Origin: Chryseobacterium takakiae
GTDB taxonomy: Bacteria; Bacteroidota; Bacteroidia; Flavobacteriales; Weeksellaceae
Assembly (NCBI RefSeq): GCF_900129385.1
Contig: NZ_FQVO01000005.1
Coordinates: 186,001-250,000, forward strand
Reading direction: 5' to 3'
Length of the DNA: 64,000 nucleotides
Positions 16,994-22,009 of the stretch are shown here, one piece after another. The notes beneath the pieces were generated by a model. That model ran no database searches. It was given only the letters and a program-made list of their open reading frames with translations, and was not told the origin of the DNA. The position numbers were made by a program, and so were the translations under genes. Within the stretch, counting starts at the first letter, position 1, and every line of letters begins with the position of its first letter.

Positions 16994-17101
16994 TAAGGTA
17001 AATTTATAGTTTGGATTTTGAAATCTTTGCAAAGTTAAAGCCATCAATAATAAAAATTGATAAAATAAAATCGCTAATTTTTATATACTAATTATTGTTC
17101 G

Positions 17102-17109
17102 TATTTTTG
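17102..17109 (+). promoter_or_regulatory. Putative -7 box for the Fe-S assembly cluster
   Basis: TATTTTTG matches TAnnTTTG and lies 28 bp before the A-type carrier gene. The -33 region is A/T-rich without a TTG. Confidence 0.4.
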
Positions 17110-17137
17110 CACTATTAAATCATTCTAAATAAATACA

Positions 17138-17467
17138 ATGATAAAAGTATCAGATCAAGCAAAGGCAAAAGCAGTCCAGCTAATGACAGAGGAAGGCTTT
17201 AACCCTGCTGAAGATTATATAAGAGTAGGGGTAAAAAGCGGAGGATGTTCTGGTTTAGAATATGTTTTGAGGTTTGACAACCAAAAAGCAGACACTGATC
17301 AAATTTTTGAAGACAATAATATTAAAATTGTTGTCGACAAAAAATCAATCCTCTACCTTGCAGGGACAACTCTTGAATATTCAGGAGGATTAAACGGAAA
17401 AGGATTTGTTTTTAACAATCCTAATGCATCCAGAACATGCGGATGCGGTGAAAGTTTTTCTCTTTAA
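17138..17467 (+). CDS. A-type Fe-S carrier (SufA/IscA family)
   Basis: A 109-residue HesB/IscA-type protein that holds and hands on Fe-S clusters. Three ligand cysteines are visible: one in KSGGCSGLEY (about residue 37) and two in the C-terminal CGCG. It opens the suf cluster and lies 148 bp before sufB. Whether it should be called sufA or iscA cannot be decided from sequence alone. Confidence 0.92.
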   Translation: MIKVSDQAKAKAVQLMTEEGFNPAEDYIRVGVKSGGCSGLEYVLRFDNQKADTDQIFEDNNIKIVVDKKSILYLAGTTLEYSGGLNGKGFVFNNPNASRTCGCGESFSL

Positions 17468-17615
17468 ATTTAAGATTTAAGTAAGAAAATAGGAGGCTTT
17501 ATATTTTATTTAGAAAATAGTGATCTAAAAGGCTCCAAATACAAAAACAGAAAATAAAAATAATTCGGAGATACAAAATTTTGAATTTCGAATTTTGAAT
17601 TTTTGAATATAAATT

Positions 17616-19064
17616 ATGAATAAATATACCGAAGACGATTTACGCGTCGACTTAGAAAATAAAAAATACGAATTCGGATGGGAAACGAAAATCGATTACG
17701 AAGATTTTCCTACCGGTCTGAATGAAGATATCATCCGCGCTATTTCTGCAAAAAAAGAAGAGCCGGAATGGATGACGGAATGGCGCTTGGAATCTTTCAG
17801 AATCTGGCTGAAAATGACAGAGCCGGAATGGGCCAATATTAAATATGAAAAACCGGATTTCCAGGCGATTAAATATTACGCAGCTCCGAAAGTAAAGCCT
17901 GAGCTGGCAAGTCTTGACGAAGTTGACCCTGAATTGATCAAAACTTTTGAAAAATTAGGAATCAATATCGAAGAGCAGAAAAGACTTTCCGGTGTTGCTG
18001 TAGATATTGTAATGGACTCCGTTTCTGTGAAGACCACTTTCCAGGAAACCTTAATGGAAAAAGGAATTATCTTCTGCTCTATTTCGGAAGCCATTAAAAA
18101 TCATCCGGACCTGGTAAGAAAATATCTTGGAAAAGTAGTTCCGAGAGGTGATAATTTTTATGCCGCCCTGAATTCTGCCGTATTCTCTGACGGAAGTTTC
18201 TGCTATATCCCGAAAGGCGTAAGATGCCCAATGGAACTTTCAACCTATTTCCGTATCAATCAGGCAGGAACAGGACAGTTTGAAAGAACGCTGGTGATTG
18301 CCGATGAAGGAAGTTATGTTTCTTATCTGGAAGGGTGTACTGCACCATCAAGAGATGAAAATCAGCTTCACGCAGCTGTTGTTGAATTGATCGCTTTAGA
18401 TAATGCTGAAATAAAATATTCAACCGTACAAAACTGGTATCCGGGAAATGAAGAAGGAAAAGGCGGAGTTTTCAATTTCGTAACGAAGAGAGGACTTTGC
18501 GAAAGAAATGCAAAAATCTCCTGGACACAGGTAGAAACAGGCTCTGCAGTAACATGGAAATATCCTTCATGTATATTAAAAGGAGACGGATCCATTGGTG
18601 AGTTCTACTCTATCGCGGTGACAAACAATCATCAATATGCAGATACAGGAACAAAAATGATCCATATCGGTAAAAATACGAAGTCCACAATTATCTCTAA
18701 AGGTATTTCTGCCGGGAAGTCACAAAATTCATACAGAGGTCTTGTTAAGGTCATGCCTTCTGCAAAAGGAGCCAGAAATTTCTCGCAATGTGACTCTCTG
18801 CTGATGGGTAATGAATGTGGAGCGCACACTTTCCCATATATTGAAATTAAAGATCCTTCTGCACAGCTGGAGCATGAGGCAACAACTTCAAAAATAGGGG
18901 AAGACCAGATTTTCTACTGCAACCAAAGAGGAATTGACACAGAAAGAGCTATTGCTCTGATTGTAAACGGTTTCAGTAAGGAAGTTTTAAATAAATTACC
19001 TATGGAGTTTGCCATTGAAGCTCAGAAATTACTTGAGATTTCTTTAGAAGGTTCTGTCGGGTAA
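17616..19064 (+). CDS. sufB: Fe-S cluster assembly protein SufB
   Basis: A 482-residue scaffold subunit of the SufBCD complex, which builds Fe-S clusters in the cytoplasm. Family landmarks include [25 protein letters not shown] (about residues 190-214), YLEGCTAPS, and the C-terminal [19 protein letters not shown] containing the conserved cysteine. Its usual partner sufC does not follow directly: a GxxExxY element begins only 6 bp after the sufB stop. Confidence 0.95.
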
Positions 19065-19070
19065 TATATG

Positions 19071-19091
19071 TAAACATTAAGAAGTTAAGTT
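19071..19091 (+). repeat. Left terminal inverted repeat of the GxxExxY element
   Basis: This 21-bp AT-rich sequence is the reverse complement of 19681-19701 at 20 of 21 positions. It starts 6 bp after the sufB stop. Further inside (19104-19125) is an inverted partial copy that can fold back on this arm with one wobble pair. Confidence 0.7.
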
Positions 19092-19169
19092 TTTTTAAAC
19101 TCTCTTAAATTCTTAACGTTCAAAATATTAAGGAATTGATAAAATCAATTCTTTTAAAGAAAAATTAAT

Positions 19170-19574
19170 ATGACAAAAACACAAATAACACAACTTTCTT
19201 ATGACATTGTAGGATGCGCCATCAAAGTACATAAGGAATTAGGCCCGGGCTTATTGGAAAGTGTTTATGAAATGTGTTTGGCATATGAGTTAAGAGAAAA
19301 GGGATTTTTAGTTAATCAACAAATTAGCACCAAAATCAGTTATGGAAAAATTGAAATTGAAACTCCGCTAAAAGTTGATTTACTTGTAAATGATTCAATT
19401 ATTATAGAAATCAAAACTGTTGAAAGTTTATTGCCCGTCCATCAGGCTCAGCTGATGACTTATATGAAAATATTGGAAAAGCCTCAAGGTCTTTTAATTA
19501 ATTTTTATACGGACAATATAACAAAGTCGATGATTCCTTTAATAAATGAGTATTTTTCAAAACTCCCGGAATAA
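19170..19574 (+). CDS. GxxExxY protein, PD-(D/E)XK nuclease-like
   Basis: A 134-residue member of the GxxExxY family, related to PD-(D/E)XK nucleases. The name-giving motif GLLESVY is at about residues 28-34, and the nuclease-like core VDLL...IIIEIKTVE (Asp, then Glu-x-Lys) at about 72-86. Family members are scattered and often sit in small AT-rich elements with complementary ends. Here the gene lies between sufB and sufC inside such an element. A nuclease activity is inferred from the fold only. It is almost certainly not an Fe-S assembly factor. Confidence 0.85.
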   Translation: MTKTQITQLSYDIVGCAIKVHKELGPGLLESVYEMCLAYELREKGFLVNQQISTKISYGKIEIETPLKVDLLVNDSIIIEIKTVESLLPVHQAQLMTYMKILEKPQGLLINFYTDNITKSMIPLINEYFSKLPE

Positions 19575-19584
19575 TATTTTGTTC

Positions 19585-19625
19585 AATTAAGTTAAATTTA
19601 CTGCAATAGCTTAATTAACTTAATT
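19585..19625. repeat. Internal hairpin after the GxxExxY gene
   Basis: AATTAAGTTAA and TTAACTTAATT form a perfect 11-bp stem around a 19-base loop, 11 bp after the GxxExxY stop. It has no T-run, so it looks like a structural part of the element rather than a terminator. Confidence 0.55.
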
Positions 19626-19680
19626 TAAAATCAATTTTATTGATTTGCTTAAAAAAAATAAATGTTACATTAAGACTAAT

Positions 19681-19701
19681 AACTTAAATTCTTAATGTTT
19701 A
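19681..19701 (-). repeat. Right terminal inverted repeat of the GxxExxY element
   Basis: Reverse complement of 19071-19091 with one mismatch. Outside it, the sequence up to sufC (19702-19811) has three short hairpins, for example CCTTTG/CAAAGG and AAGATT/AATCTT, but no gene. Confidence 0.7.
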
Positions 19702-19811
19702 AAAAGAAAAAAAGAAAAGTATTTCATTGATAAGCGTTAGCGCCTTTGTTATTTTAAAAAACCAAAGGAAGATTAAAAATCTTAGTCTAGCCTTGCGATA
19801 AATTAGAAAAT

Positions 19812-20555
19812 ATGTTAGAGATAAAAAACTTACACGCCAGAATTGAAGACGGCGCAGAAATTTTAAAAGGAATTAATCTTGAAATAAAGCCGGGTGAAGT
19901 TCATGCTATCATGGGACCAAACGGAGCCGGGAAATCAACACTCTCTTCCGTAATCGCAGGAAAAGAAGATTATGAAGTTACAGATGGAGAAATCATTTTC
20001 GGAGGTGAAAACATTATTGAAGATGCTCCTGAGGAAAGAGCACACAAAGGAATTTTCCTTTCTTTCCAGTATCCGGTAGAAATTCCGGGAGTTTCTGTAA
20101 CCAACTTCATCAAAGCAGCGATGAACGAAAACAGAAAAGCCAACGGATTAGACGAAATGCCTGCCAAGGAAATGCTTTCGATGATCCGTGAGAAATCGGA
20201 AAAATTAGGTATTAAAAAAGATTTCCTTTCAAGATCATTAAACGAAGGATTTTCCGGAGGTGAAAAGAAAAGAAATGAAATTTTCCAAATGATGATGCTG
20301 GATCCGAAACTGGCTATTCTTGACGAAACAGATTCAGGATTGGACATTGATGCACTGAGAATAGTTGCAGACGGTGTTAATGCTTTTAAAAATGAAGGAA
20401 ATGCAGTTCTTCTGATTACCCACTATCAGAGACTGCTTAATTATATACAACCTGATTTCGTACATGTATTGGCCAACGGGAAAATCATCAAAACAGGTGA
20501 TAAATCTCTTGCGCTGGAACTGGAAGAAAGAGGTTACGACTGGCTTTTAAATTAA
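19812..20555 (+). CDS. sufC: Fe-S cluster assembly ATPase SufC
   Basis: A 247-residue ABC-type ATPase that drives the SufBCD scaffold. Walker A (GPNGAGKST, about residues 36-44), the signature FSGGEKKRNE (about 145-154), Walker B with the SufC-typical LAILDETDSGLD (about 165-176) and the switch histidine in LLITHYQR are all present. It is followed by sufD after 66 bp. The gene is intact despite the element inserted upstream, so it needs either read-through from sufB or its own promoter. Confidence 0.95.
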   Translation: MLEIKNLHARIEDGAEILKGINLEIKPGEVHAIMGPNGAGKSTLSSVIAGKEDYEVTDGEIIFGGENIIEDAPEERAHKGIFLSFQYPVEIPGVSVTNFIKAAMNENRKANGLDEMPAKEMLSMIREKSEKLGIKKDFLSRSLNEGFSGGEKKRNEIFQMMMLDPKLAILDETDSGLDIDALRIVADGVNAFKNEGNAVLLITHYQRLLNYIQPDFVHVLANGKIIKTGDKSLALELEERGYDWLLN

Positions 20556-20621
20556 TTAAAAGATAAGAATTCAGAGATTCATCTCTTAGTTTAACAATTC
20601 AGCCAAACAAAAAAAGAAAAA

Positions 20622-21956
20622 ATGGTGCAAACCACAGATATACCAGTAATGGCATTAAAAGAACAGATTACAGAAAATCATAACAAATTTTTGGAGAGCC
20701 TTCGTCATAGATTCCTGGACGAAAAAAGAAAAGCAGCTCTTCAAAGATTTGAAAGAATAGGTTTTCCTACAAAAAAAGACGAAGAATATAAATATACCAA
20801 TCTCAAGGAGATTACCGAAAAAACCTATAACTTTTTCCCGAAAGAAAGCCACAATATCACCAAAGAGCAATTGGATAATCTGCATTTGGGTGAAGAAAAT
20901 TTTGACTGGATTACTTTCGTAAATGGTAAGCTTCATAAAGAACTTTCAAAAGTTTCTATTGAAAATGTAGAGTTTCTTTCATTTAATTATGCTTTAAATG
21001 ATGAGCAACACAGAGAGGTTTTCGATACCTACTTCAATACAATTGCTTCGAAAGATTCTGCTTTTACCAATCTGAATGAGGCCTATTGCAAATATGGATT
21101 CTTTTTGAAGGTTCCTAAAAATGTAATAATCGAAAAACCGATTCACATTTTCTACATCTCTCAAAATCAGGAAGAAAACACCTTCTATAATACGAGAAAT
21201 TTATTAATCGTAGAAGAAGGTGCCAAAGTGGAAATTATTGAAAGTCACCACAACTTTGACAGCACGTATGTACTTACAAATTCGGTAACAGAAATTTTCA
21301 CGTACCCCAACGCAAAGGCAGACTGGCATAAAGTACAAAACGATAACGATACTTCTTATCTCATTGACAGTACTTTTGCAAGACAGGAAAAAGACAGTTT
21401 AACCACTGTCAATACATTTTCTTTCGGAGGAAAGCTGGTGAGAAATAACCTGGATTTTATTCATAACGGATCCAATATCAATTCGTTTATGAACGGAATT
21501 ACCATTATCGGTAAAGATCAGCTCGTAGATCATCACACAGCGGTTCACCATAATTTCCCGAACTGTGAAAGTTACCAGAATTATAAAGGTATTTTCAACG
21601 GAAAATCTCACGGAGTTTTCAACGGAAAAGTTTTTGTTGATAAAATAGCCCAGAAAACAAATGCGTACCAGCAGAATAACAATGTTTTGCTGAGCGAAGG
21701 AGCAAGTATTGATACAAAACCTCAGCTGGAGATTTTTGCAGATGATGTAAAATGTTCTCATGGATGTACCGTAGGACAATTAAATGAAGATGCTCTGTTC
21801 TACTTAAGAGCAAGAGGTATTTCTAAAAAAGAAGCTCAGGCTTTATTGCTCTATGCTTTCGCAAATGATGCAATGCAGAATATAGATATTGAGCCGTTGA
21901 AAGAAAAAATTTCTAAGCTTTTAGCCGAGAAACTGGAAGTTGATATAGAATTTTAG
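20622..21956 (+). CDS. sufD: Fe-S cluster assembly protein SufD
   Basis: A 444-residue SufD subunit, paralogous to SufB in its right-handed beta-helix core. Landmarks are the N-terminal helical region with FPTKKDEEYKYTNL (about residues 48-61), DHHTAVHHNFPNCES and the C-terminal KCSHGCTVGQLNEDALFYLRARG. The cysteine desulfurase gene sufS does not follow in this window: a terminator comes next. Confidence 0.94.
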   Translation: MVQTTDIPVMALKEQITENHNKFLESLRHRFLDEKRKAALQRFERIGFPTKKDEEYKYTNLKEITEKTYNFFPKESHNITKEQLDNLHLGEENFDWITFVNGKLHKELSKVSIENVEFLSFNYALNDEQHREVFDTYFNTIASKDSAFTNLNEAYCKYGFFLKVPKNVIIEKPIHIFYISQNQEENTFYNTRNLLIVEEGAKVEIIESHHNFDSTYVLTNSVTEIFTYPNAKADWHKVQNDNDTSYLIDSTFARQEKDSLTTVNTFSFGGKLVRNNLDFIHNGSNINSFMNGITIIGKDQLVDHHTAVHHNFPNCESYQNYKGIFNGKSHGVFNGKVFVDKIAQKTNAYQQNNNVLLSEGASIDTKPQLEIFADDVKCSHGCTVGQLNEDALFYLRARGISKKEAQALLLYAFANDAMQNIDIEPLKEKISKLLAEKLEVDIEF

Positions 21957-21977
21957 TAATATATAATTGATAATAGT

Positions 21978-22009
21978 AAGCACTTCATATTTTATTGGAG
22001 TGCTTTTTT
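21978..22009 (+). terminator. Terminator of the suf cluster
   Basis: AAGCACT / AGTGCTT with an intervening A/T loop is followed by a run of seven T. Confidence 0.8.

Follow-up and report, generated by a model that had tools for sequence, protein, structure and literature searches.

A GxxExxY nuclease gene between its own inverted ends: a putative one-gene element in the sufB-sufC gap of Chryseobacterium takakiae

In the window analyzed here, the whole 64,000-nucleotide stretch of C. takakiae contig NZ_FQVO01000005.1, positions 19071-19701 probably constitute a one-gene element, in which a GxxExxY nuclease is encoded between its own inverted ends and would act on these repeats as DNA. Comparison of sequences showed that the gene and its arms form one unit in which each type of protein has its own type of arm, that this unit is present at many unrelated loci, and that it has repeatedly been lost from a site through deletions ending in the arms. 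The one-gene unit is well supported, and we infer the transposition chemistry.

Structure of the sufB-sufC gap and its GxxExxY protein

The gap between the sufB stop (19064) and the sufC start (19812) is 747 bp long in this 4.2-Mb genome and contains a 134-aa open reading frame (ORF), the type-A GxxExxY gene (19170-19574, + strand), identified by profile, motif and structure comparison. Its flanks, sufB (17616-19064) and sufC (19812-20555), were called as ORFs on the + strand. The original prediction had placed 21-bp inverted repeats around the gene, beginning 6 bp after the sufB stop, and both statements were borne out. The left outer arm TAAACATTAAGAAGTTAAGTT (19071-19091, + strand), with which the element starts 6 bp past that stop, matched the reverse complement of the right outer arm AACTTAAATTCTTAATGTTTA (19681-19701, + strand), with which it ends, at 20 of 21 positions, and the pair reached 24 nt with 92% complementarity when extended by alignment. 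The best left/right arm score was 19, against a mean of 11.4 in 3000 dinucleotide-preserving shuffles of both gaps flanking the gene (P = 0.0037), and pairing of the arms at P ≤ 0.007 was kept in 15 of the 16 orthologous sufB-sufC sites.

Internal fold-backs, also foreseen, were found at both ends, which share the layout outer arm, inner partner, palindrome. On the left, 19071-19090 folds locally with 19104-19121, part of the inner arm 19104-19125 (+ strand), which is in addition a 22-bp direct repeat (91%) of the right arm at 19683-19704. The left palindrome GGAATTGATAAAATCAATTC (19132-19151, no strand) lies directly 5' of the gene, and its 10 pairs are conserved in almost all of the 13 species compared. 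On the right, AAATCAATTTTATTGATTT(G) (19627-19646, no strand) mirrors the left palindrome, and 19667-19675 folds with 19691-19700. The whole right end (19607-19702, - strand) is a relative of a dispersed palindromic repeat of ~107 bp (E 1.4e-6).

Positions 19719-19803 (+ strand) proved to be a remnant of a different right arm: identity is ~90% with the right arms in three intact type-B GxxExxY elements (L066, L105, and L130) and ~80% with their left arms in reverse complement; the type-B gene and the type-B left arm are absent from the sufB-sufC gap of the window. A sufC leader had been considered for this segment, but was dropped, as type-B species show an element arm there. The type-B gene, 36-39% identical to type A, was found between sufB and sufC at 10 genus-level sites. 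Its inverted repeats were strong in all four sites tested (scores 26.5-48, shuffles at most 17) and ~87 bp long in three of them. By this comparison the gap holds a type-A element adjoining the scar of a type-B element. That the leftover arm comes from an older, different GxxExxY element is part of our overall explanation and shares its better than even standing.

The 134-aa protein scored 136.8 bits with TIGR04256 (GxxExxY; cut-off 35) and 130.7 bits with PF13366 (PDDEXK_3; cut-off 22). In 26 sequences E80, K82, Q94, and Y98 were invariant and D70 nearly so, which gives the RecB/Cas4 pattern D...ExK...QxxxY; as read from these residues, the catalytic set of the family is complete. The AlphaFold2 model (pLDDT 95) had as its best Foldseek match in the PDB SSO0001, a Cas4-family structure (E 2e-4, probability 1.0), followed by lambda exonuclease, and Cas4 profiles also matched the protein (E 5e-5). 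We predict that it is a minimal Cas4/RecB-like PD-(D/E)XK nuclease, and we infer that it cuts DNA. It resembles SSO0001 and lambda exonuclease in fold and in the D...ExK and QxxxY motif. In contrast to Cas4, it is 134 aa long, is without the Cas4 iron-sulfur cysteine set by our reading of the sequence, has no adjacent cas genes in the window, and is framed by inverted arrays. The median dN/dS of the type-A gene was 0.06 (sufB, 0.02), indicating purifying selection.

Gain and loss at the sufB-sufC site

SufB is 95-100% identical across nearly all 148 genomes of the genus, and 97 distinct sufB-sufC sites from the genus and its close neighbours were surveyed. GxxExxY genes accounted for 16 type-A sites, 4 with type-A relics, 10 type-B sites, and 2 with type-B relics. 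A GNAT gene occupied 25, an exported transthyretin-like gene 8, an S23 four-helix-bundle gene 1, and another gene 1, these non-GxxExxY names being our reading of the translations; 30 sites had none. On the sufB tree of the 97 genomes the occupancy label changed 41 times. Filled, decayed and empty sites were thus found when relatives were compared for an empty junction, and together with matching arms at unrelated loci they uphold the view that the gene belongs to an inserted element. The element was also said to split an essential operon, which is true; however, the gap is a tolerant insertion spot, as the frequency of GNAT genes illustrates.

Type A was present between sufB and sufC in Halpernia and Cloacibacterium as well. 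Because of this distribution and a dS comparable to that of sufB, type A is an old resident of the site that has frequently been lost; its gain is therefore deduced, and loss alone is well dated. In a sister genome (L058), ~500 bp of the site in the window (L001) are gone, equal to about 19082-19583, and independent deletions of the type-A gene distinguish two other pairs of sisters (L013/L064 and L015/L071). In all three pairs the deletion ends lie inside the arms. An arm-arm hairpin is the sole remainder in several empty sites, for example L122 and L077, which fits the expectation if direct repeats recombine. No recent jump between near-identical strains was seen in the compared genomes.

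Several other arrangements were observed in this gap. The type-A left end is repeated in tandem in L023 and L013, where a ~95-bp unit is present about 5 and 2 times, respectively. Two different GxxExxY genes occur together with an NAD(P)H-oxidoreductase-like ORF in Cloacibacterium (L025), a RelBE-like pair in L139, and a subtilase-like ORF in L098. Eight sites (L079, L087, L088, L101, L111, L119, L125, and L144) share a conserved gene-free sequence of ~235 bp with fold-backs, which ends in GCAAAAGTTAGCAAGA 5' of sufC and is possibly an RNA leader or an element remnant. A different palindromic repeat, TGTCATTCTGAAC...GAAATGACA, was found in L065, L084, L089, L096, L104, and L124. An S23/four-helix-bundle gene lies between inverted GATAATTTG-type repeats in L078 and L103, and L073, L075, and L136 may hold remnants of S23 genes.

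GxxExxY genes and matched arms at other loci

The exact hairpin AACATTAAG...CTTAATGTT had no match in the window, as the inner arm deviates from it at one position, and the only genome match of the pattern ACATTAAG...TTAATGTTTAAA was the sufB-sufC copy. A looser 17-mer and a 111-bp query were used for finding further genome copies. The genome contains two further GxxExxY genes, and all three genes have inverted arms, of three unrelated sequences. The arms of the copy between murC and ftsQ (L011) are 40 nt long and clearly significant; those of the other (L010) are 19 nt long, seen by eye and weak by score. The left outer arm motif AACATTAAGAANTTAAG occurs 14 times in the genome, compared with 0 for its reversed control. 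Genus genomes with a type-A gene have a median of 9 copies and the others 0 (Mann-Whitney P = 2e-14, kinship ignored). In addition, ~25 gene-free palindromic copies of ~107 bp, related to the type-A right end, are dispersed in the genome, and conservation beyond their ends suggests a full repeat of more than ~107 bp. Four ATTAAG-type dispersed repeats (L298-L301) are clustered on contig C24 (116862-117700).

The murC-ftsQ distance in relatives was either 0-65 bp (empty) or ~610-675 bp (element present), and decayed copies were also found, two truncated (L394 and L395) and four left as arm scars of ~30 bp (L369, L372, L375, and L376). Over 11 species the 39-bp arms at this locus were 97% complementary (417 of 429 cells), with both-sided changes at three pairs; the orientation of some rows of the alignment was not fixed, which leaves the pairing count unaffected.

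For 90 Bacteroidota GxxExxY genes outside the sufB-sufC locus, the 350-bp flanks on the two sides were searched for their best inverted match; loci were chosen by best HMM score or similarity, and some are near relatives. The data showed that 64 were framed at P ≤ 0.01 and 73 at P ≤ 0.05, clear arms at P ≤ 0.01 being missing in 26. Against mismatched left/right flank pairs, 58 of the 90 exceeded the 95th percentile and 38 the 99th. The median arm distance was 34 nt 5' of the start and 7.5 nt 3' of the stop. None of 44 control genes, the other genes of the window and thus from one genome, was framed at P ≤ 0.011. Among cyanobacterial genes, taken together with two from Chloroflexota, 31 of 32 were framed, and the cyanobacterial arms were often 0-5 nt from the ORF, many touching it, for example ACGAACCACAGAGGCACAGAGGACACGGAG (L350) and TTTTTAAACGCAAAGGGGCGCAGAGG (L338). 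GxxExxY genes were present in 149 of 296 sampled Bacteroidota genomes, often in several copies; a plasmid search gave distant homologues only, and a phage search gave none.

The arms are arrays of 7-mers of the classes CACAGAG, CGCAAAG, CACGGAG, CGCAGAT, and ATTAAG, mostly spaced 8-11 bp apart; left-hand units point to the gene, and right-hand units are their mirror image. In Bacteroidota the left arms had 205 forward and 62 reverse units and the right arms 73 and 227, counts that are partly circular for the units, whose pattern was derived from this phylum, and not for spacing or orientation. In cyanobacteria, with the pattern fixed beforehand, the numbers were 106 and 11 on the left and 7 and 95 on the right. 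On a tree of 142 proteins the arm class, assigned by simple patterns, changed 21 times, compared with 62.6 times when shuffled. The ATTAAG arms were confined to one clade of 37 proteins (support 100/100), whose hosts are Weeksellaceae, Flavobacteriaceae, Sphingobacteriaceae, Marivirga, Niabella, and Bacteroidales, and which by comparison of neighbours occupies ~14 unrelated loci. Between L336 and L338 homology is bounded by the element, and the flanks are unrelated.

Possible mode of action, alternatives, and significance

Spacing near a helical turn and fixed orientation suggest binding of duplex DNA or of single-stranded DNA hairpins. The nuclease would recognize the oriented, ~10-bp-phased units in duplex DNA or, alternatively, the hairpins that the units form when single-stranded during replication. 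It would cut at the recognized arms, and host replication and repair would finish insertion or copying. Against this scheme, PD-(D/E)XK enzymes resembling Cas4 and lambda exonuclease are not known to perform strand transfer. As part of the same explanation, and with the same fair degree of confidence, we regard the element as selfish or semi-domesticated and as persisting for long periods where it does no harm, in intergenic positions like sufB-sufC and murC-ftsQ.

The gene was originally likened to intervening sequences (IVS) of rRNA genes, with arms that would pair in the transcript, bring sufB and sufC close and allow RNA processing at the stem. As an RNA element of this kind, its arms would be cut by RNase III or a similar enzyme, and the insert would either be taken out of the sufB-sufC mRNA or lie insulated within it. 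We consider this quite unlikely, even though the outer arms are paired in the minimum-energy RNA fold (z = -3.8) and S23/four-helix-bundle proteins, which are encoded by rRNA IVS elements, offer a parallel: the S23 gene in the same gap of L078 has its own inverted repeats (P = 0.001), and the same test found 12 of 30 Bacteroidota S23 genes outside rRNA (L208-L237) to be framed. Those framed S23 genes carry short-period inverted repeats such as TGGCTACTGGCTACTGG and AAGTATCAAGATATGAGTATCAAG. The likeness to IVS is partial, however, as an rRNA context is absent in 20 GxxExxY and 20 S23 loci; an Rfam scan found neither rRNA nor any other known RNA family at the 20 GxxExxY loci, and at gathering thresholds it gave no match in window positions 17000-22000, group I and II introns included. 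A stem bridging sufB and sufC is one option, but both ends also fold locally. Processing at the stem is not supported, since covariation in the left end hairpin was limited to 1 of 20 pairs, and the helix-like unit spacing and Cas4-like fold point to DNA.

It is also unlikely that the gene was captured passively, being unrelated to dispersed palindromes that attract insertions and moved by homologous recombination between such repeats. The right end does belong to the dispersed family with its gene-free copies, and the site hosts other repeats and genes too; however, arm class tracks protein clade across bacterial families, the arms abut the gene in a fixed orientation, and three genes have three arm types in one genome. 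Least probable, in our view, is a settled regulatory or defence gene, in which the arms form hairpins resembling operators or terminators that control the nuclease, the nuclease serves the host, and the unit is now immobile. Strong purifying selection, the long stay at sufB-sufC and the Cas4-like fold agree with this, but the gene is patchy, two loci showing both relics and empty sites, the same gene-arm unit lies at many unrelated loci, genomes carry several diverged GxxExxY copies, and terminators would leave the matched inverted arrays on the two sides unexplained. Over these three readings we favour a one-gene element with a nuclease that works on the element's own ends.

Such an element shares features with several known systems. 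Like rRNA IVS with S23 (23S_rRNA_IVP, TIGR02436), it is a sporadic, short single-ORF insert with complementary ends, but it lies outside rRNA, encodes a nuclease instead of a four-helix bundle, and has ends made of unit arrays at about one helical turn. The IVS of Coxiella are likewise short single-ORF inserts with complementary ends and decaying ORFs (PMC4990558). REP/RAYT (TnpA-REP) and IS200/IS605 also combine dispersed palindromes with a small nuclease, a matched repeat type and flanking inverted repeats; in contrast, GxxExxY has a Cas4-like PD-(D/E)XK fold, 7-mer arrays and no HUH (Y1) enzyme. Terminal inverted repeats, gene-free palindromic relatives, and empty and filled sites recall IS elements and MITEs. 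However, the sole ORF is a PD-(D/E)XK nuclease and not a transposase of DDE, HUH or recombinase type, and no target-site duplication was detected, flanking direct repeats showing no excess across 87 elements. The TAACTGA heptamer repeats of Beggiatoa come near in concept, being intergenic and of short period (PMC4679880); the words 'nuclease', 'S23', and 'intervening' are all absent from that text. In the open-licence literature 'GxxExxY' occurred in two incidental mentions only, and we found there no description of a GxxExxY function, the repeat units, PDDEXK_3, or such one-gene elements.

Among the 'hypothetical' protein families of bacterial genomes GxxExxY is one of the more common, and the cognate, oriented inverted arrays around its genes lead to a testable hypothesis, that the nuclease of the element acts on its own ends. 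We propose tentatively, as a broader possibility that is somewhat less than even, that GxxExxY genes lie at the heart of a large class of one-gene mobile elements, present in Bacteroidota and Cyanobacteria at the least. A minimal Cas4-like nuclease would recognize the cognate inverted arrays at the ends of its own element and drive the spread of these elements, gene-free palindromic relatives included. If true, this would explain a class of short dispersed repeats, the CACAGAG, CGCAAAG, and ATTAAG arrays, and would suggest GxxExxY as a source or a side branch of the Cas4-like nucleases. How IVS-type elements move could also become clearer through the likeness to S23 genes that lie outside rRNA.
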